Assembly: GCF_025854275.1 (NCBI RefSeq) | Contig: NZ_CP107567.1 | Coordinates: 4,216,001-4,280,000, forward strand | Direction: 5' to 3' | DNA: 64,000 bases | DNA from: Streptomyces peucetius | GTDB lineage: Bacteria > Actinomycetota > Actinomycetes > Streptomycetales > Streptomycetaceae | Shown: positions 2,491 through 64,000 of the stretch, piece after piece | Layout of the letters: each line of letters starts with the position of its first letter | Numbering within the stretch: position 1 is the first letter of the stretch | Made by a program: the position numbers and the translations under genes | Notes under the pieces: model-generated | What the model was told of the DNA's origin: nothing | What the model saw: the letters and a program-made list of their open reading frames with translations, nothing else | Database searches by the model: none

Positions 2491-3717
2491 TCACCACTTG
2501 TAGGTCCAGACGGTGTCGTTGTACGCGTCGGAGCTGTTCACGTGGATCCGGATACGGGCGGTGTCGTCCTGGAACGTCTGGCCGGGTTTCCAGGTCTGCA
2601 TGTCCAGCGTGGTGCAGTTCCCGGTGGGTGCGGCGGCTCTGGGGTTGCTCACCACGCGGATCGGCCCGTTGCCGCTGGCGACCGAGGTGTCGACCTTGTA
2701 GATCAGTACGCCGGTGGCGCAGGCGCCCGAGTCGTTGTCGGCGGCCTTGCGGGACTCGGCGACGTAGGCGGTGGTGGCGCTGGTCTTGATCACTGCCAGC
2801 TTGTAGCCGTTACCCCCGTACTCCACTCCGTTCAGGGTGGTGGAGTAGGTGTTGTTCGTGGACAGGCAGGAGACCTGGCTGTCGGTGATCCAGCCGAGCT
2901 TCCACGCGTGCCAGCCGAGGAACTGCGGGGCCGGGCCGCTGATCTTGCCCATGAGGTCCCAGCCGCCGACGTACCGGTGCTGTTCGCCGTCGAAGGCGTA
3001 GAGGTCGGGGAGGCCGAAGGTGTGGCCGGTCTCGTGGTTGGCGACCTTGTAGCCCCAGTGCCACATGTCCTGTCCGAAGGTCACCGCCCACTTGATCGCC
3101 ACCCAGGCGTTCGTCGTCCTGTTCCAGACCCAGGTCGGGTTGGCGGGGTTCTGGACCCAGGTGGGGGTGTGAGTGATCGCGGCCGCGGTGCTGGTCGGCA
3201 CGATGTAGAACGTGTCGTAGTTGGTGAGGTTGACGCCTGCGTTGGCGGCGCCGGCGAGCGCGTCCTTCACATACGTCCGGTGCGTGTCCCAGGAGAACCC
3301 GCGCTCCCAGTTGTAGTCGGTAGAGCTCTTCGGCATGCGCACCCAGTTGGCGTATGGGGCCCGCATGTTCAGCCAGACCTTGCCGTTGGACGCCTTCCAC
3401 ATCCAGTCGGCGGCGCCCGATATCTGGTTGTAGTAAGGCGTGAGAGGCAGGGACGTCCCGGCGGCGTCGGGGAAGTCCACGTAGATCACGCCCACGCGCT
3501 TGGTGCCCTCCGGCTTCTGGAACCGGTTGTAGTCGGTCTGCTGGCCCTCGTCGGTGTAGCCGGTCGTCCCCTGGAGCGCACACGTCGAGGTGCTCCCGTT
3601 GTACGCATGGGCGGGGCCGGCAGGGACGACGACCAGGGCGAGCAGAGCGAGCATGGCGGACAGGACGAGGAGGGGCGCTGCGCGGAAAGTACGCCACGCC
3701 CCAGGTGAAAAGCCCAT
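2491..3717 (-). CDS. Secreted M6-family zinc metalloprotease (paralogue B)
   Basis: This 408-residue protein starts at an ATG (3717) preceded by GGAGG. A signal peptide with a long hydrophobic core ends at PAHA-Y near residue 38. The catalytic motif HETGHTFGLPD begins at H228 (E229, H232). Residues 40-400 align along their length with paralogue A, including CALQG.TG.TDEG, the QDMW..G.KVA..ETGH block and YVGGWD.MG. Transcription converges on paralogue A across a shared hairpin. The head-to-head paralogue pair suggests an inverted local duplication followed by divergence. It acts outside the cell; its substrate cannot be told from sequence. Confidence 0.88.
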   Translation of the reverse strand: MGFSPGAWRTFRAAPLLVLSAMLALLALVVVPAGPAHAYNGSTSTCALQGTTGYTDEGQQTDYNRFQKPEGTKRVGVIYVDFPDAAGTSLPLTPYYNQISGAADWMWKASNGKVWLNMRAPYANWVRMPKSSTDYNWERGFSWDTHRTYVKDALAGAANAGVNLTNYDTFYIVPTSTAAAITHTPTWVQNPANPTWVWNRTTNAWVAIKWAVTFGQDMWHWGYKVANHETGHTFGLPDLYAFDGEQHRYVGGWDLMGKISGPAPQFLGWHAWKLGWITDSQVSCLSTNNTYSTTLNGVEYGGNGYKLAVIKTSATTAYVAESRKAADNDSGACATGVLIYKVDTSVASGNGPIRVVSNPRAAAPTGNCTTLDMQTWKPGQTFQDDTARIRIHVNSSDAYNDTVWTYKW

Positions 3718-4450
3718 GTTGTGCCTCCGGGGGGAAGTGATCCGGGCAGTGGGGCCCGGGTGGCTGCGACCGGGTCGGTCGGTGCTTCAACAGGGATGGC
3801 CGCCTGTTCGCAGCCCTCTATGGGTGATGTAGGCATGACAGACATGCCGGGCATGTCGTCGCGACCATGAGATCGCATCGGCTTCCGGAGCTTCACGCCG
3901 GATCACCCGCGATCGCGGACCGTGCCCGTCCGTCAGGGGTGGGCACCTCCCGAAACGGCCACTGAGCAGGACCCGCTGGTGGATACGTTGGGGACAGCAT
4001 GCGGATGCGGTACTGACACCGGAAGCTCTTGATTGCCCATAACGTCGCGCTATGGGCTCGTCGTTCGGCTCGGCTCCTACGCCGCATCCGGCCGGTCTCC
4101 CCGGTCAGGGCGGCTCGTCTCGCCTTCGTACGCCCATGTCAGCGGATGTCGCGGATTCGATATCCGCTGACCAGTGCGGCATGCTCAAGGCTGAGACGGT
4201 CGGCAGGTAGGAGCTCGGTGAGACCTGGAGCCGGTCGGCGTCACCAGCATCGCGGCGATGACGGGAGTGAAGCGGCCGAAGACGGCCCCTTTCGTGCACC
4301 CCTGCCGATCGGCGTACGCGCCGATCAGCGGGACTCCGATCAACCGGCCGCGCACCGACCAGTACGGCGAGCGCGTACCGGCCGACAGGTCCCACGCGGA
4401 CTTCGGCCCTTCGGAGGCGCGCCGTCCCGCAAGAGGACTAGACAACAAAC
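3718..4450. other. Long intergenic stretch left of the integrated element
   Basis: About 730 bp with no convincing gene. It holds the leader of protease B, the palindrome at 3841-3857, and an inverted repeat at 4139-4170 (TCAGCGGAT with ATCCGCTGA). Short frames on both strands lack ribosome-binding sites and recognisable domains. The left side of the element starts at its end. Confidence 0.5.
3841..3857. promoter_or_regulatory. Palindrome upstream of protease B
   Basis: GACATGCC-G-GGCATGTC is a perfect 17-bp inverted repeat about 125 bp upstream of the protease B start codon. Its position and symmetry fit an operator for a dimeric regulator, but no regulator gene is adjacent and no promoter hexamers are obvious beside it. 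Confidence 0.35.
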
Positions 4451-49734: not shown

Positions 49735-50155
49735 CCCGCAACGCACCGCGCCTGACGCCCCCGCGCCCGCAACGCACCGCGCCTGACGCACCCGCACCCG
49801 CAACGCCCCCGCGCCCGCGCCCGCAACGCACCGCGCCTGACGCACCCGCACCCGCAACGCCCCCGCGCCCGCGCCCGCAACGCACCGCGCCTGACGCACC
49901 CGCACCCGCAACGCCCCCGCGCCCGCGCCCGCAACGCACCGCGCCTGACGCACCCGCACCCGCAACGCCCCCGCGCCCGCGCCCGCAACGCACCGCGCCT
50001 GACGCACCCGCACCCGCAACGCCCCCGCGCCCGCGCCCGCAACGCACCGCGCCTGACGCACCCGCACCCGCAACGCCCCCGCGCCCGCGCCCGCAACGCA
50101 CCGCGCCTGACGCACCCGCACCCGCAACGCCCCCGCGCCCGCAACGCACCGCGCC
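49735..50155. repeat. 54-bp tandem repeat array
   Basis: The word GCCTGAC recurs at 49750, 49781, 49835, 49889, 49943, 49997, 50051 and 50105; from 49781 on the step is exactly 54 bp. The unit is built from CGCCCGCAACG and CGCACCCGCACCCGC modules. The last seven units are near identical. The array ends 7 bp before the stop codon of the leftward ABC permease gene, so it would be in that gene's 3' untranslated region. Because 54 is a multiple of three, long Ala/Gly/Arg/Cys frames appear on the minus strand. Confidence 0.9.
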
Positions 50156-57244: not shown

Positions 57245-58081
57245 ATGCTATTCACCATTCTTGGACCGCTCACGGTTCGGGGAGGCGCTGAGATCTGCTC
57301 GGGCATCCGCCGCGCGATTCTCACCGCTTTTCTCCTGCGGACCGGACAACCCATCGGGGTCACCGGACTTGCGGACCTGTTGTGGGACGAGCCACCGACC
57401 TCCGCCACGGCAAATATCCGCAGCCATCTCACGGGCCTGCGACGTGACCTCGACGAAGCCGAACCGGGCCTGAGCGGAAGGCTGAAGACCTACCGCGGCG
57501 TCCAGAGCGGCTACGGTCTCCAGATTCTCCCCGACGAATTCGACGTACCGAAATTCACCCTGGGAGCACGAAAGGGCCGGACCCTTCTCCTGCGGGGCGA
57601 CGTCGAACCCGCCATCGCCGAACTCGAACAGGCCGTGGCCCTGTGGCGGGGCACGTTCGGGCAGGACCTGCCCTCGACACGATGGTTCGACGCCCATGTC
57701 ACCGGCCTGAACAACGCCCGGTTCGACGCGTACCAGGACCTTTTCACCGCCTGCGTCCTCGCCGGCCGCACCGGGGCGCTCTCCTACCGGATCGAGAGCG
57801 TTCTCGCCGAGGCGCCCTACCGGCAGCGCCTGTGGGAACTCCTGGCCGCGGTCCACTGCATCGACGGCGACGCCGCCGGCGCCCTGTGCGTGATCAAGCG
57901 CTGCCAGGCGATGTTCGCCGACGACCTGGGCCTCGACCTGCCGCCCCATGTCGACGCCATGCGGGACGCCGCTCTCAGATGGGACCGCGACCAGGCCATG
58001 CGCCTCGTCGCGGGGCACCTGCTGTCGGCCGGCAGCGGTGGCCGACAGGGCATCACGGTCCCTCTGCAGGGACGTTCCTAG
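57245..58081 (+). CDS. SARP-family pathway activator
   Basis: The ATG at 57245 gives 278 residues. Residues 1-95 are an OmpR-type winged helix (TILGPLTVRGG, LLRTGQPIGVTGLADLLWD, TANIRSHLTGLRRDL). The rest is a bacterial transcriptional activation (BTAD) domain (LWRGTFGQDLPSTRWFD, SVLAEAPYRQRLWELLAAVH, CQAMFADDLGLDLPPHV). This is the minimal AfsR/ActII-orf4 type that switches on antibiotic clusters. It converges on the lanthipeptide operon across a hairpin, so it is the likely cluster-linked activator; binding sites would be beyond 64 kb at the operon start. Confidence 0.9.
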   Translation: MLFTILGPLTVRGGAEICSGIRRAILTAFLLRTGQPIGVTGLADLLWDEPPTSATANIRSHLTGLRRDLDEAEPGLSGRLKTYRGVQSGYGLQILPDEFDVPKFTLGARKGRTLLLRGDVEPAIAELEQAVALWRGTFGQDLPSTRWFDAHVTGLNNARFDAYQDLFTACVLAGRTGALSYRIESVLAEAPYRQRLWELLAAVHCIDGDAAGALCVIKRCQAMFADDLGLDLPPHVDAMRDAALRWDRDQAMRLVAGHLLSAGSGGRQGITVPLQGRS

Positions 58082-58100
58082 CGGGCAGCGGCCCCGGAGC

Positions 58101-58129
58101 AAGGGCGCCCCGTGGACGGAGGCGCCCTT
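58101..58129. terminator. Bidirectional hairpin between SARP gene and lanthipeptide operon
   Basis: AAGGGCGCC and GGCGCCCTT form a 9-bp stem with an 11-nt loop between two convergent stops (58081 and 58144). Confidence 0.75.
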
Positions 58130-58143
58130 CGGGTACGACGCCC

Positions 58144-58920
58144 TCACACGTCCCGGCGCCGTACCGCCAGATACCCCGCGGTCACCGAGACGGCGGTCCA
58201 CGCCACCAGCACCGCCATGCCGCTCCAGGCGGTGAGCACGGTGTTGTCCGGCTGCTCCCTGAACAGGACGATCCCGCCCGCCACGTCCGGCAGGAACTGC
58301 GCAGCCTTCCGGACGCCGGGAATGTTGTTGAGGATCGTCGAGATCATGAAGAAGAGCGGCAGCAGGATGCTCATGGTGAGCGCGGAGCTGCGCAGCACGG
58401 TCGCGAGCCCCATCGAGAACAGACAGAGCAGCGTCGTGTAGAGCACCGCTCCGGCCATCCCCCTCAGCACCCCGTCGTCCAGGAGGGAGACGCTCTGCGG
58501 ACCGCCCATCGCCATCTGAGTGGTGAAGAAGCTGACGCCCACGACGACGACGGAGGCGGCACACGCGGTCGCACCACCGGTGAGCAGCTTCGCCCCGTAG
58601 AAGACACCGCGTCTCGGCACGGCGGCGAGCGAGCTGCGGATCGTCCCCGTCGAGAACTCGCTGGTCACGATGAGCACGCCGAACACGACGAGCGCGGTCA
58701 GCCCGAGCCGGAGCCCGCTGAAGCCGGTGGAGACGGGATCGAACCCCGCCTTGGCCTCCGCGCTCATGTCCCCGTACGCGCCCCTCATGAAGTACCCCGT
58801 GAGCAGGGCGACGGCCACGCTCAGCAGGAGATAGGCGGCGAGGCTCCACACGGTGGACCGCAGGGTCCGGATCTTCGTCCACTCGAAGGTCATGGCCGCA
58901 CTGGTGTCCGCCATCGTCAC
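58144..58920 (-). CDS. ABC-2 type permease of the lanthipeptide cluster
   Basis: The GTG at 58920 overlaps the ATPase stop (GTGA). The 258 residues contain six transmembrane helices, with TFEWTKIRTLRSTVWSL at the N-terminus and TSEFSTGTIRSSLAAVPRRG, the usual ABC-2 permease loop. With the ATPase it forms an exporter of the kind that gives self-protection (LanFEG-like) or moves small molecules. As the last gene of the leftward operon it is probably the immunity pump. Confidence 0.85.
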   Translation of the reverse strand: MTMADTSAAMTFEWTKIRTLRSTVWSLAAYLLLSVAVALLTGYFMRGAYGDMSAEAKAGFDPVSTGFSGLRLGLTALVVFGVLIVTSEFSTGTIRSSLAAVPRRGVFYGAKLLTGGATACAASVVVVGVSFFTTQMAMGGPQSVSLLDDGVLRGMAGAVLYTTLLCLFSMGLATVLRSSALTMSILLPLFFMISTILNNIPGVRKAAQFLPDVAGGIVLFREQPDNTVLTAWSGMAVLVAWTAVSVTAGYLAVRRRDV

Positions 58921-59831
58921 CGCACCTCCTGCTTCGCCCGGTAGTCCACCGCGTCGGCCGTCAGCCCCATGAACGCCTCCTCCAGAGAAGCAACTTGGGG
59001 ACTGATCTCGTACACCGTCACCTGGTTGGCGGCGATCAGGGAGCCGACCGTCTCCAGGGTCGTGCCGACGGCCTCGATCACTCCCTCGGGCCCGTCGTCC
59101 GCCCGGATGCCCCCGGCGGCCAGCACATCGCGCATCCGCTCCGGTTCAGGGGTGCGGATCAGGATGTACGAGCGGGAGTTGCGGGCCACGAAGTCCTCCA
59201 CGGACGTGTCCGCGAGCAGCCGCCCGCGCCCGATCACGATGAGGTGATCGGCGGTCAGCGCCATCTCGCTCATCAGATGGCTGGAGACGAAGACCGTGCG
59301 GCCCTCGCCCGCCAGATGCCTCATCAGGCCGCGGATCCACAGGATCCCTTCGGGGTCGAGGCCGTTGACCGGCTCGTCGAGCAGCAGCACCTGCGCGTCG
59401 CCCAGCAGCGCGGCGGCGACGCCGGCGCGCTGCGCCATCCCGAGCGAGAGACCCTTGGCCCGCTTGTGTGCCACGTCGGCCAGTCCGACGGTCTCGAGGA
59501 CCTCGCCGACCCGCTCGTCGGGAATGCGGTTGCTGCGGGCCAGTCCCAGCAGATGCCCGTGGACCGTACGCCCGCCGTGCATCGCCCGGGCTTCCAGGAG
59601 CGCACCGACCGTGCACAGGGGGCGGGACAGTTCGTCGTAGCGTCTGCCCCCGATGAGGGCCCGGCCGGAGGTGGGCCGGTCCAGACCGAGCAGGGCGCGC
59701 ATCGTGGTGGACTTCCCGGCTCCGTTGGGGCCGAGGAAGCCGGTGACCCGGCCCGGCTCGACGCGGAAGGAGAGGCCGTCGAGCGCGAGGGTCGAGCCGT
59801 AGCGTTTGGTCAGTTGCTGTACCTCGATCAC
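58917..59831 (-). CDS. ABC transporter ATPase of the lanthipeptide cluster
   Basis: The GTG at 59831 overlaps the stop of the reductase gene (GTGA). The 304 residues have Walker [10 protein letters not shown] (34-42), signature KGLSLGMAQRAGVAAALLGD and Walker B VLLLDEPVNGLDPEG. The bacitracin-resistance (BcrA/LanF-like) type fits a role in self-immunity. Overlaps on both sides place it firmly in the operon. Confidence 0.9.
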   Translation of the reverse strand: MIEVQQLTKRYGSTLALDGLSFRVEPGRVTGFLGPNGAGKSTTMRALLGLDRPTSGRALIGGRRYDELSRPLCTVGALLEARAMHGGRTVHGHLLGLARSNRIPDERVGEVLETVGLADVAHKRAKGLSLGMAQRAGVAAALLGDAQVLLLDEPVNGLDPEGILWIRGLMRHLAGEGRTVFVSSHLMSEMALTADHLIVIGRGRLLADTSVEDFVARNSRSYILIRTPEPERMRDVLAAGGIRADDGPEGVIEAVGTTLETVGSLIAANQVTVYEISPQVASLEEAFMGLTADAVDYRAKQEVR

Positions 59832-60784
59832 GAGGGCACTCCGTTCAGGATCTTCAGCAGATCCCGGGCAGCGGCCTGAGGGCCGTGCACCAGCCCGACA
59901 CCGGTGGCGTTCAGCACCACCTCGTCGACACCGGCGGCCCGGTACTCGTCCAGCCTCTTGTGGATCTCCTCCTCGGTCCCGTACAGGAACACGCCGCCGT
60001 CGACGAGCTTGACGGCGTCCTCGGGGCTCGGCTCGCCGGACACCGCGATTCCGGCCTTGCGCAGGGTGTCCTGGTAGTGCGGGAGCTGGATGTGGGAACC
60101 GCAGGCGGCGGCCGCCAGGTCGGTGACACTGCGGTCCGGTCCGGACAGCGCGACGGGCACGATGGCCGTGATCCTCGCCGGATCGTCCAGCGTGCGGTCG
60201 GCGCTGCGGACGGCCGGGATCAGGGTGTCGCCCACGTACTGCGCCGACCCCATCCAGGTGATGGCCACATCGGCGACCTCTCCGGCCAGGACCGCCATCT
60301 TCTCCCGCAGCACGCCCAGTCCCACGGACACCGGCGGCGCGGGGGACCGGATCAGCTTCGCGGAGACCGTGTGGTGCGTCCCGTCGACGTCGACCTGGTT
60401 CCCGGCCAGCAGACCGCGCACGATCTCCACGTACTCCCGGGACGCGCGCAGCTGGCTCGCGTACGGCCGGCCCATGACGCCCGCCTGGAGGGACAGCGAT
60501 CCGGGGCCGAATCCGGCGACGACCGGATGCCCGGTCGCCAGAGCCACCGAGCGGGCCTCGACGGCGGCCTGGTAGGGGGAGCGGAACGGCATCAGGGAGA
60601 CGCCGAATCCGGCGGGCACCCTGATGCCGATGCCGGCGAGCCAGCTGACCAGGTGGTGGGACTCCAGGACCATGCCCTGGCCCTGCCACAGACGTTCGGC
60701 CGCGGTCCACTTCACCAGGTTCGCGAACGGCACCACCTGCTCGGGCCGGGTGGGGCCGAAGGGCAGCAGAATGGAGTACCGCAC
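59828..60784 (-). CDS. Luciferase-like F420/flavin oxidoreductase, putative lanthipeptide dehydroalanine reductase
   Basis: The GTG at 60784 directly follows the stop of the small membrane peptide (TGAGTG). The 318 residues are a luciferase-like monooxygenase-fold (LLM) TIM barrel: FGVSLMPFRSPYQAAVEARS, HPVVAGFGPGSLSLQAG, YVEIVRGLLAGNQVDVDG, VSVGLGVLREKMAVLAGEVA. In lanthipeptide clusters LLM-family enzymes (LanJ_C class) reduce dehydroalanine or dehydrobutyrine with F420H2 to D-amino acids. Tight coupling to lanM makes this the best proposal here. Other F420 or flavin redox steps are possible. Confidence 0.8.
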   Translation of the reverse strand: MRYSILLPFGPTRPEQVVPFANLVKWTAAERLWQGQGMVLESHHLVSWLAGIGIRVPAGFGVSLMPFRSPYQAAVEARSVALATGHPVVAGFGPGSLSLQAGVMGRPYASQLRASREYVEIVRGLLAGNQVDVDGTHHTVSAKLIRSPAPPVSVGLGVLREKMAVLAGEVADVAITWMGSAQYVGDTLIPAVRSADRTLDDPARITAIVPVALSGPDRSVTDLAAAACGSHIQLPHYQDTLRKAGIAVSGEPSPEDAVKLVDGGVFLYGTEEEIHKRLDEYRAAGVDEVVLNATGVGLVHGPQAAARDLLKILNGVPS

Positions 60785-60952
60785 TCAGCGCCCCTGCTTG
60801 CGCGACTTGACGTACAGGGCGGCCGAGACGGCCGCGCCTGCCACGGCGGCGAAAACGGCGCCTCCGTAGTTCTCCTGAGTGATGCTCACGGCCGCGATCA
60901 CCACACCGATGACGACCGGCATGCTGTGGCCGAGGCTGCTCTTGCTGTTCAT
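60785..60952 (-). CDS. Small two-helix membrane peptide between lanM and the reductase
   Basis: The ATG at 60952 follows AGGAGA. The 55 residues begin MNSKSSLGHS, then two hydrophobic stretches (MPVVIGVVIAAVSI and GAVFAAVAGAAVSAALYV) joined by TQENYGG, and end KSRKQGR. There is no Cys and few Ser/Thr, so it is not a lanthionine precursor. The layout suits a small membrane immunity or transport accessory protein. It lies 21 bp after lanM and directly abuts the reductase start. No homologue recognised. Confidence 0.75.
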   Translation of the reverse strand: MNSKSSLGHSMPVVIGVVIAAVSITQENYGGAVFAAVAGAAVSAALYVKSRKQGR

Positions 60953-60973
60953 GGTTCTCCTGTTGACTGGCTG

Positions 60974-63760
60974 TCAGTCGGATACGGGGCCGGTGAGCGC
61001 GACGGGTACGGGAAAGGCGCCGTGGCCGGTGGCGGCGGCGTGCAGCATGATGTCGGTGTCGCCGATGCCGGCCCAGCCGAACATGTAGCCCAGCAGCGAC
61101 GTCCGGCCGACGGAACCGGTGTGGAAACCGTTCTTGCGGATCGCGGTCATCACGCGTTCCTGGTGGTCGGCCGCCCGTTCGAGCAGCGACTCCTCCCCGA
61201 GGATGCGGCCCGCGGCGATCAGCGACTGGATCACACCGCTGCTGCCGTGGCAGACCGACAAATCCACGGGCCGGTCGGCGGGAAGCCGCGTCGCCCTGTC
61301 AGTCAGGTCCGCCAGCCGCCGGCCGGTCAGCAGGTCCTGCCGCCCGGCCGAGACGAGGATCTCCGCCGTCGTCAGCAGCAGCCCTGCGGCGCCGTTGCAC
61401 CAGCCCGTCACCGGCGGCTCGTCGTCCTCGGCCAGCCGGCCGGCCAGCCAGTCCGCGGCCGCGTTCGCCGGGCCCGCGTCACCGAGGACCCGCCCGATAC
61501 GGGCGGCGGCCCACCGCATTCCGAGGTCGCCGTGCGCCACGTCGTACCAGTGCGCCGATCTGGATACGCCGGTGTGGCCGAGGACCAGGTCGTGCAGGCG
61601 TGTCAGCCGTTCCTGTCCGACGAGGGGGCTCTCGCCCGCCTCGAGCCGGGACAGCAGGACCATCAGCAGACCGGCGGGGCCGTTGGCCAGGTCGGTCTCC
61701 AGCGTGCCGGCCGCCGCCCCTTCGTCGATCTTGTCCAGCACCCGGCCCAGCCAGGTCCGGTCCACCCGGTCCGGGCGGGTGAGCACCAGGGACGCGGCCC
61801 CGGTGAAGACGCCTTCCGGCACCTGGAGCAGTACGTCGCCGTACGCCTCGAGGAGCGTGTCGAAGCCGCGGTCCGCGCCGAGGTGGGCGCCTCGGACGCC
61901 GGGGTCGTGGCGTGCCGCGTTCTCCAGGAACGTGACGATGCCGCCGACGTCGTGGAACGAGATGAAGTTGCCGGGGGTGAGGGTGGGTGCGCTCCGGTCG
62001 GGGCCGATGCCGCACACCCAGCCGGTCTCCGGCCCGTCCGGTCCGTCGTAGGACACGCCGAGGGACGCGATGGTGCGGGCGATGCCCGCCCACCACTCCC
62101 GTGGACGGGCCTCGTCGAGAGTCCGGGCGAACACACTGCTCGTGGACAGCCCGCCCGGCCGGTCGCCGGCCACCTCGCCGAAGCACTCCTCCATCAGGAA
62201 GTGGTGGAAGAGGTCGCTCCGGCGGGCGTTGAGCGCGAGGCCGCTGCGCGCGAAGTCGAGGGGCGACGCCGTGTGCACGGCCGGGAAGCCGGACCTGGGT
62301 GTGCCCAGTTCGGTGGAACCGGCCCTGGCGATGAAGTAGGGCACGTTGCCGGTGTTCAGCGAGGCCCGCTCCTCGGCACCGACATACGCGGCGGCCTCGG
62401 GGCTGAGATAGTCCGGGTAGTGCCCGAGGAGCCGGAAGATCCGCTCGGCCTCCGTGGCCCGGCCCAGGTAGTCCGGGTGCGTGGCGGCGTCCAGGAACCG
62501 GGTGTAGACCATCGTGGAGCGGATCAGACAGCGGACGGGCATGTCCGGGTAGCTGTCGAGCACCTTGGAGACGGCGTCGCCCCGGACCGCTCCGAGGGCG
62601 TCGGTGTATCCGGCGAGGATCTCCTGGAAGTGGTCGATCGGTGACAGCGCCGTGTCGCCGAGCCGGGGCACGTTGTTCTTGTGCCGGTAGGTGACGTTCT
62701 CCCACTGGACGCAGATGCCGTCCGACTCCCCGTCGCGGACCACCGGCCGTCGCATCTTCGACGTCTGGTCCCGGTCGATGCCGACGCCCGCCATGATCAG
62801 GTCGATGGGCGAGTTCGGATTGGCCATCGGGACGAGCATCGTCGAGGCGACCGACAGCTTCAGCTGGTTGATCAGCACATGGGGCAGCGAGTCGTTCCGC
62901 ACCCCCGGGTTGGGCCGGATCATGGTCTCCGTGTCGATCACACACGGGTGTTCGCCGCCGGCCAGCAGGTTCTCCTCGTGGAGGTCCGACGCCCCGATCG
63001 AGCCGAACAGCGCGCACAGGGCGCCGATCCGGTAGAAGTAGCGGGCGGGCTGATCCGGGGCCGTCATCGGCCGGGGCGTGACGAACTGCTGCCATCCGTG
63101 CGAGCCGACCGTGACGGACGCCGGTACGCACTCCTGGAGCGAGTACCGCAGATGCCCCTCCGCCGCGGTGTAGAGGTCGGACACGAACCGGTCCGAGACC
63201 AGGGCCCGCGGCTTGAAGACGACCTTAATGCCGCCACCCAGCCGCACGCCCACGACCTGCCGGTTGTCGTTGTGCAGGTCCGCGCCCGTGGCGAAGAGCG
63301 ACACGACGGGATCGTCGTCGGTGGGCAGCAGCCCGGCCCGGTGCAGGGCCGTGCGGTCCTGGGCGTAGGCGGTGAACAGATCGGCGTAGGCGTCGAGCGA
63401 GTTGCGCAGGACCGTCTCGAGGCGTTCTTGGAGCACGGGGTACGCGTCGAGGACGCGCCGGCTGTTCTTCGGGTCCTCCAGATGCCCCCGGAACCTCTGG
63501 AGTGCCTGGTCGCCGTCGGAGGTCATGGGCAGGCCGTGCCGTTCCCTGAAGGCGTGGAACTCACCGATCAGCGTCCGGAAGGAGTGGCTCTCGACCGTGG
63601 TGGCGAGTTCCTCCCACACCTGGTGGAGCAGCGACTCGGTGTGCTCCGGCGCCGACGCTTCGGCGACCGGGCCGCGCAGTCGCGCGGCGACCGTGGCGAG
63701 CGGGACCAGATGGACATAGAAGGGGAGGAACGCCTTGATGGATACGCCGGGTTCGGTCAT
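60974..63760 (-). CDS. lanM: Class II lanthipeptide synthetase LanM
   Basis: The ATG at 63760 overlaps the stop of the transporter gene (ATGA). The 928 residues have an N-terminal dehydratase domain (DUF4135) with FATGADLHNDNRQVVGVRL, KVVFKPRALVSDRFV and DLHEENLLAGGEHPCVIDTE, typical of the kinase-like active site, and a C-terminal LanC-like cyclase with the zinc ligands C788 (GWCNGAAG), C837 and H838 (VCHGSSG). It phosphorylates and eliminates Ser/Thr in the precursor and closes thioether rings with Cys. Slightly short for LanM but complete. The precursor gene is not in the window. Confidence 0.95.
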   Translation of the reverse strand: MTEPGVSIKAFLPFYVHLVPLATVAARLRGPVAEASAPEHTESLLHQVWEELATTVESHSFRTLIGEFHAFRERHGLPMTSDGDQALQRFRGHLEDPKNSRRVLDAYPVLQERLETVLRNSLDAYADLFTAYAQDRTALHRAGLLPTDDDPVVSLFATGADLHNDNRQVVGVRLGGGIKVVFKPRALVSDRFVSDLYTAAEGHLRYSLQECVPASVTVGSHGWQQFVTPRPMTAPDQPARYFYRIGALCALFGSIGASDLHEENLLAGGEHPCVIDTETMIRPNPGVRNDSLPHVLINQLKLSVASTMLVPMANPNSPIDLIMAGVGIDRDQTSKMRRPVVRDGESDGICVQWENVTYRHKNNVPRLGDTALSPIDHFQEILAGYTDALGAVRGDAVSKVLDSYPDMPVRCLIRSTMVYTRFLDAATHPDYLGRATEAERIFRLLGHYPDYLSPEAAAYVGAEERASLNTGNVPYFIARAGSTELGTPRSGFPAVHTASPLDFARSGLALNARRSDLFHHFLMEECFGEVAGDRPGGLSTSSVFARTLDEARPREWWAGIARTIASLGVSYDGPDGPETGWVCGIGPDRSAPTLTPGNFISFHDVGGIVTFLENAARHDPGVRGAHLGADRGFDTLLEAYGDVLLQVPEGVFTGAASLVLTRPDRVDRTWLGRVLDKIDEGAAAGTLETDLANGPAGLLMVLLSRLEAGESPLVGQERLTRLHDLVLGHTGVSRSAHWYDVAHGDLGMRWAAARIGRVLGDAGPANAAADWLAGRLAEDDEPPVTGWCNGAAGLLLTTAEILVSAGRQDLLTGRRLADLTDRATRLPADRPVDLSVCHGSSGVIQSLIAAGRILGEESLLERAADHQERVMTAIRKNGFHTGSVGRTSLLGYMFGWAGIGDTDIMLHAAATGHGAFPVPVALTGPVSD

Positions 63761-64000
63761 GCGTGCTCGCCTCCGACGAGAAGGTCCATGGTCTTGTCCG
63801 CGTAGAGGTCGGTGTAGACGGAGCCGCCGTCGAGCAGCTCCTCGTGCGTTCCCTGTTCGACGACGCGCCCGTCTGCGAACACGTAGATGTGGTCCGCCGA
63901 CCGGATCGTCGCCAGCCGGTGGGCGATGATCACCTGCGTGGCGCCGATGTCCCGGATGATCTGGTTGACGCGGCGCTCGTTGACGGTGTCGAGGGACGCG
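63757..64000 (-). CDS. ABC transporter (LanT-like), C-terminal part; 5' end beyond window
   Basis: On the minus strand the frame is open from the window edge to the TGA at 63757-63759. The 80 visible residues read ASLDTVNERRVNQII, then VIIAHRLATIRSADHIYVF and GRVVEQGTHEELL, the D-loop, H-loop and C-terminus of an exporter ATPase domain with fused membrane domain. Beside lanM it is probably LanT, which removes the leader and exports the lanthipeptide; whether it has the N-terminal C39 peptidase domain cannot be seen. The stop overlaps the lanM start (ATGA). Confidence 0.88.
   Translation of the reverse strand, partial: ASLDTVNERRVNQIIRDIGATQVIIAHRLATIRSADHIYVFADGRVVEQGTHEELLDGGSVYTDLYADKTMDLLVGGEHA

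Follow-up and report, generated by a model that had tools for sequence, protein, structure and literature searches.

The window analysed here is a 64,000-nucleotide stretch of the Streptomyces peucetius genome (bases 4216001-4280000 of a single contig of 8.05 Mb). Its right end carries part of an operon, read on the minus strand, that continues beyond the last base; positions above 64000 are given in extended window coordinates. With a probability of about 0.88, the operon codes for a class II lantibiotic made of two components, as in birimositide and lacticin 3147, and is a new representative of this known type. We describe its gene content and order, the homologies of its products, their co-occurrence in related clusters and a repeat site upstream of the first gene. 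The cluster type being known, the added value lies in two pairings, between a regulator and a site and between a reductase and its substrate.

Gene content and class of the operon

The genes are transcribed in the order alpha precursor, beta precursor, LanM2, LanT, LanM1, a 55-residue peptide, an oxidoreductase of the luciferase-like monooxygenase (LLM) family, an ATP-binding cassette (ABC) ATPase and a permease, with the gene of a Streptomyces antibiotic regulatory protein (SARP) convergent at the end. The labels LanM1 and LanM2 were coined in this analysis. The LanT and LanM1 genes, the LLM and ATPase genes and the ATPase and permease genes overlap by 4 nt each; 21 nt separate LanM1 from the gene of the 55-residue peptide, which abuts the LLM gene, and 62 nt lie between the convergent permease and SARP genes. 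The same arrangement, with variations, recurs in related clusters, and the layout is thus not due to chance. An earlier annotation made from the letters of the window (the sequence-only reading) had already placed the genes that it named, their stop/start overlaps and the convergent SARP gene correctly. It had also expected a precursor gene within about 10 kb to the right, and the two precursor genes indeed lie 5.1-5.4 kb past base 64000, with leaders ending in GA/GG.

Both synthetases exceed the cut-off of the NCBIfam model TIGR03897 (304 bits), with 322.6 bits for LanM1 (928 residues, 60974-63760, minus strand) and 481.9 bits for LanM2 (1041 residues, 65917-69042, minus strand). Both precursors likewise score above the cut-offs of curated lantibiotic models, the alpha peptide (54 residues, 69272-69436, minus strand) with PF14867 (Lantibiotic_a, 38.9 bits) and NF000539 (55.5 bits), and the beta peptide (53 residues, 69079-69240, minus strand) with NF038161, the LchA2/BrtA2 family (71.2 bits, cut-off 26). 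The class II lanthipeptide operon proposed from the window is borne out by these matches; that proposal was right about the product being a lanthipeptide and missed its two-component nature and the second LanM. Two precursors and two LanMs rule out a single-peptide lanthipeptide. The alpha core contains the lipid II motif CTLTKEC, and its Ser7 falls in the same block as Ser7 of lacticin. A search of solved structures with the alpha peptide gave two matches up to an E-value of 10, the sole relevant one being lichenicidin A1 (E 0.0024). LanT (719 residues, 63757-65916, minus strand) combines a C39 leader peptidase domain (PF03412, 95.8 bits) with an ABC exporter (PF00664, PF00005); it would cleave both leaders at GA/GG and export both peptides. 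The alpha peptide would then bind lipid II via its CTLTKEC ring region, after which the beta peptide may form a pore.

We assembled related clusters for comparison. LanM1 has matches in 12 of 392 Streptomyces genomes, including its own (E<=1e-60). A scan of named genomes yielded 30 loci, 27 of which are actinobacterial clusters (L038-L064); among 11 further regions, seven duplicate those 30 loci, one (L030) was dropped and three were added. The comparison set thus comprises 31 clusters, namely the S. peucetius operon, L020, L025, L029 and L038-L064. Distant LanM matches (L065-L067 and L070-L072) stand outside it, and the cluster of genome G064 (L030/L035) was left out of the counts as decayed, since its LanM matches were all partial and a precursor gene was not found there. 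An LLM gene is present in the locus of 24 of the 31 clusters, a SARP gene in 22, the ABC pair of ATPase and permease in 23 and a homologue of the 55-residue peptide in eight, own cluster included; some loci stop at contig ends, so the corresponding numbers of absences are upper bounds. Outside these counts, a plasmid-borne Streptomyces cluster (L113) has an LLM gene, an alpha peptide with the block TFSLS discussed below and a gene for the 55-residue peptide next to the permease; neither SARP gene nor repeats were found in the stretch covered. As a side observation, a single ORF (open reading frame) of 1683 residues encodes a LanT-LanM1 fusion in L043 and L062, as published for S. bingchenggensis, and possibly also in L044.

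Lacticin 3147 (plasmid pMRC01 of Lactococcus lactis, L114) has the same order, alpha-beta-M-T-M-J, with our LLM gene in the place of ltnJ. In BLASTP comparisons, the alpha peptide is 58% identical to LtnA1, the beta peptide 45% to LtnA2 and LanT 38.5% to LtnT. LanM2 matches the first LanM of the lacticin cluster with 369 bits, against 94 for the second; for LanM1 it is the second that matches better (252 versus 82). In lacticin 3147, LtnM1 serves the alpha and LtnM2 the beta peptide, and by homology LanM1 is an LtnM2-like synthetase; LanM2 would accordingly modify the alpha and LanM1 the beta precursor. Nine rearranged relatives (L029, L050-L056 and L060), in which LanM2 and a LanT of its own go with the alpha gene and LanM1 with the beta gene, fit this assignment. 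The lacticin cluster differs in that its J gene codes for a medium-chain dehydrogenase (LtnJ) and not an LLM, and in that its ABC genes and a helix-turn-helix regulator gene are divergent, with no SARP gene in the region shown. A lacticin-like cluster with an LLM gene substituted for ltnJ has been published before (PMC7794033).

The closest parallel in gene content is birimositide (brt, from Streptomyces rimosus subsp. rimosus WC3908), an actinobacterial two-component class II system with a lacticin-like alpha peptide (family II 9), a beta peptide of family II 19, a luciferase-like enzyme and no LanJA; LLM enzymes of this kind were named LanJC (Walker et al. 2020, PMC7268733). The S. peucetius operon has the same three hallmarks, a lacticin-like alpha peptide, a beta peptide fitting the NCBI LchA2/BrtA2 model and a PF00296 enzyme; the likeness is drawn at the level of families and gene content. 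S. rimosus was not among the 30 loci of our scan. No LanJA was found among the genes of the operon, to which that reading was confined. In Streptomyces viridochromogenes DSM 40736 (L038), two precursors, two LanMs flanking LanT and a flavin monooxygenase were noted in 2014 (PMC3951391). This cluster differs in having a second, divergent LLM gene upstream of the alpha gene (2945-3889, 55% identity) and an unusual alpha core, and its locus revealed no ABC immunity pair.

The permease (ABC-2 type, 58144-58920, minus strand, PF12679, 32.1 bits) and the LanF-like ATPase (58917-59831, minus strand, GTG start) are a probable immunity pump. The best NCBIfam model of the ATPase is TIGR03740 (lantibiotic protection ATPase), with 174.4 bits under a cut-off of 309.75, and it is 28% identical to LtnF (106 bits). 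The 55-residue peptide (60785-60952, minus strand) appears by eye to have two hydrophobic segments along with a basic tail, as a two-helix membrane peptide would, and the Pfam and NCBIfam scans gave no family match. Its homologues in the eight clusters lie between LanM and LLM genes. A database search restricted to exact shared words gave four matches, itself included, from six candidates, and as far as seen the peptide occurs solely in clusters of this lantibiotic kind. Peptides of the same size and place in L039, L041, L063 and L064 were missed by a profile of the other eight and not counted as homologues. The position of its gene, next to that of the LLM or of the immunity permease, leads us to guess at a role in immunity; the ABC pair, and perhaps this peptide too, would shield the producer.

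The SARP gene and a putative operator

The SARP (278 residues, 57245-58081, plus strand) has a BTAD domain (PF03704, 81.7 bits) and a winged-helix match (Trans_reg_C) of 25.2 bits, just below the cut-off of 26.2. Among the 22 clusters with a SARP gene in the locus, the other 21 proteins share 62-73% identity with it, and one more cluster has such a gene elsewhere in its genome. The sequence-only reading had regarded SARP control of a lanthipeptide cluster as unusual, a view that these numbers, together with the SARP-controlled lantibiotics cinnamycin and kyamicin, do not sustain, and SARP control as an oddity is thus ruled out.

A putative SARP operator, TGTGC-N6-TATGC-N6-TGTAC, is located 145 nt before the start of the alpha gene (69555-69581, minus strand). 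The motif, three TRTGC units with a period of 11 bp, was read from the alignment of the same clusters and then scored, with a maximum of 15. The S. peucetius site reaches 14, a score attained in none of 200 shuffles, and no site scoring at least 14 was found within the 64-kb window. Among the 21 contiguous clusters with an alpha gene, all 14 that possess the SARP score at least 13 (reached in 0-1 of 200 shuffles), and the seven SARP-less ones do not exceed 11 (naive Fisher p 8.6e-6). One of the 14, that of S. regalis (L040), sits on a truncated contig and has its SARP gene on another contig, convergent with the permease gene as in the window. No such SARP was found at E<=1e-60 in the other seven genomes searched, a set to which the L057 genome did not belong.

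The architecture resembles that of cinnamycin, whose operon has three repeats of this kind upstream, spaced by about 11 nt, and whose transcription is described as falling 1800-fold without the SARP (PMC5408092); a SARP and 5-bp SARP motifs are also reported for kyamicin (PMC6974636). Both are single-peptide lantibiotics, described with a phosphatidylethanolamine-methyltransferase for immunity, and differ in this from the two-component type. By binding to the TRTGC triple repeat ahead of the alpha gene, the S. peucetius SARP would activate the operon. To our knowledge, neither the cinnamycin nor the kyamicin cluster contains a LanJ.

Several observations weigh against this control and should temper it. 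The motif is post hoc, having been derived from an alignment of the clusters in which it was then counted, and with other spacings (8-10 and 12-14) the same score goes up to 13 in one locus. No sigma-70-like promoter was found. The nine rearranged SARP-bearing clusters have no site with the 11-bp period in the loci covered, L050 and L055 offering too little sequence upstream of the alpha gene to be scored. In addition, just two changes of the SARP and site labels are seen on the tree, and an independent-pairs test is not significant with so few. These points leave room for the SARP being a neighbour with another target and for the repeats belonging to another regulator. We consider this unlikely, given the presence of the site in 14 of 14 SARP-bearing versus 0 of 7 SARP-less contiguous clusters, the convergence of the S. 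regalis SARP gene with the permease gene on a separate contig and the agreement with the published cinnamycin architecture. By eye, a TGTGC/TATGC pair with a spacing of 23 nt was also noticed upstream of the beta gene in the six rearranged-cluster sequences inspected.

The operon might also be silent or decayed. The G064 relative, with its partial LanM matches and missing precursor, illustrates such a fate, and the DsbD-type and redoxin-type genes that lie beside the alpha gene (69931-71199; 13931-15199 in L006) look shortened at their C-termini by eye. Every lan gene of the S. peucetius operon is nonetheless open and of normal length, and we regard a silent or decayed operon as quite improbable. 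With its full set of two-component lantibiotic genes, a predicted activator and a predicted site, the operon would offer a practical handle to switch on silent clusters of its kind.

The LLM enzyme and its predicted substrate

The LLM gene (59828-60784, minus strand, 318 residues, PF00296) codes for a LanJC candidate. It would reduce the Ser7-derived dehydroalanine of the alpha core to D-alanine (D-Ala) with F420H2, and probably also one residue of the beta peptide. For cleavage at GA and GG, the neutral monoisotopic mass works out at 3194.33 for an alpha peptide short of seven waters, or 3196.34 after one reduction in addition, and at 2495.13 to 2459.11 for a beta peptide short of six to eight, each reduction adding 2.02. 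In lacticin, position 7 of the alpha peptide is described as D-Ala and the S7A variant as inactive (PMC3918158, PMC1858699). A D-Ala at position 7 is also given for rodencin and suggested for staphylococcin C55, both with lacticin-like alpha peptides; these differ in coming from Firmicutes and in having LanJA-type enzymes.

The alpha peptides carry the block TFSLS, which includes Ser7, in 24 of 24 clusters with an LLM, own cluster included, versus none of six without (L042, L043, L044, L047, L049 and L062; naive Fisher p 1.7e-6); L057, also LLM-less, has no alpha gene on its contig. The lipid II motif is present in all 30 alpha peptides, LLM or not. On the LanT and LanM trees the LLM label changes three times, always in the same direction, and the best tree provides three independent pairs. 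In the seven LLM-less genomes no LLM of this type was found at E<=1e-40, in a search that had no positive control. The D-Ala trait may thus be a module in which reductase and alpha block are gained or lost jointly and the lipid II block is constant, under a dedicated SARP whose gene and TRTGC triple-repeat operator appear and disappear in step; we would give this composite proposal even odds. LLM-positive and LLM-negative relatives form natural pairs in which to ask what D-Ala does at position 7, a residue held to be essential in the lacticin work (PMC3918158).

Here again some results speak against our interpretation. Only three label changes are inferred, one of them on well supported branches, and the sign test for the LLM/TFSLS association is therefore not significant. 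Since the alpha peptides of LLM-less clusters diverge throughout the N-terminal half, the association concerns the block and does not single out Ser7. The Ser/Thr located four residues before CPT in the beta peptides is conserved whether an LLM is present (27 of 27 peptides) or absent (seven of seven), and the beta peptide thus lends no support. More generally, the chemistry, cofactor, regulation and activity proposed for the whole cluster are all deduced from its genes. The small number of changes, together with the location of the LLM gene downstream of a beta-type LanM, would suit a complete cluster in which the enzyme acts on the beta peptide only, TFSLS being conserved by shared descent. 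This is very improbable in our view, considering that tandem mass spectrometry pointed to D-Ala in the birimositide alpha peptide, at the position known from lacticin, that the three changes all run one way and that LLM-less clusters retain the beta peptide yet are devoid of TFSLS.

The best NCBIfam model of the enzyme is TIGR03564 (MSMEG_4879), with 98.5 bits under a cut-off of 234.25 that delimits the MSMEG_4879 subfamily; the enzyme falls short of the threshold in each NCBIfam model that it matched, a point against our interpretation. A TIGR03564 domain has been described in both LxmJ and Cao12. The best match of the S. peucetius enzyme in the PDB is the F420-dependent Mer (1z69), F420 enzymes lead the profile matches there, and the genome codes for the F420 biosynthesis protein CofH (538 bits). 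The enzyme, used as the same query as in the search of the LLM-less genomes, has matches in 16 of 121 Streptomyces genomes, own included (E<=1e-70), and in its own genome the LLM scores are 693, 291 and 258 bits, followed by values of at most 38 bits.

In a tree of 41 LLMs, drawn without a general LLM outgroup, those of 24 class II clusters and the second LLM of L038 form one clade, and 16 others stand apart; these were labelled by eye from their neighbour genes as eight class V, seven daptide-like and one other. An M16-like peptidase motif is found in seven of the eight class V loci, the exception being L092, which has a Flavoprotein gene and a precursor-like ORF; a daptide-like leader is found in six of the seven daptide-like loci, L100 being the exception. 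The nearest relatives of the enzyme look F420-dependent and belong to lanthipeptide and daptide-like clusters. Enzymes of this sort are reported to reduce dehydroalanine in lexapeptide and rosin; the same activity has been proposed in cacaoidin, and for daptide clusters it is predicted or stated. The LanJC reductases of the first three are F420H2-dependent, as shown for lexapeptide and rosin and as proposed for cacaoidin; these three are class V systems, which differ in using another dehydratase and cyclase and are described without LanM. On the basis of this tree and of the gap in own-genome scores we reject a general catabolic enzyme, in line with the LanJC assignment of the sequence-only reading, and its suggestion of D-Ala or D-2-aminobutyrate in the product still holds as a prediction. 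Least probable of the alternatives is a flavin mononucleotide-dependent monooxygenase oxidizing the peptide or a free metabolite, as the luciferase-like monooxygenase name of PF00296, the flavin-dependent labels of many relatives and an alkanesulfonate monooxygenase among the weak PDB matches might suggest, since F420 enzymes head those matches, the tree neighbours belong to clusters where such enzymes are tied to D-Ala and the masses of the birimositide peptides are consistent with one Ser-to-D-Ala conversion in each (PMC7268733). The LLM is probably a LanJC-type reductase converting Ser to D-Ala.

Two more LanJC-like LLMs are encoded in the S. peucetius genome, at C1:4955995-4956936 (L092, 48% identity) and C1:3842229-3843146 (L093, 44%), each next to a gene with a Flavoprotein domain (PF02441); the small ORF of L092, with a C-terminal Cys, resembles a class V lanthipeptide precursor. 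LLM relatives in L094, L096, L097, L099, L102 and L103 are accompanied by small peptides with leaders of the sequence QELEAMEAP or close to it, which we take to be of the daptide kind; these clusters fit the LanKC/LanJC pairs described in the literature. Finally, away from the operon, the window contains a tandem array at 49756-50142 (54-bp unit, 7.2 copies, 99% matches), near ABC transporter-like ORFs at 50.2-52.7 kb.

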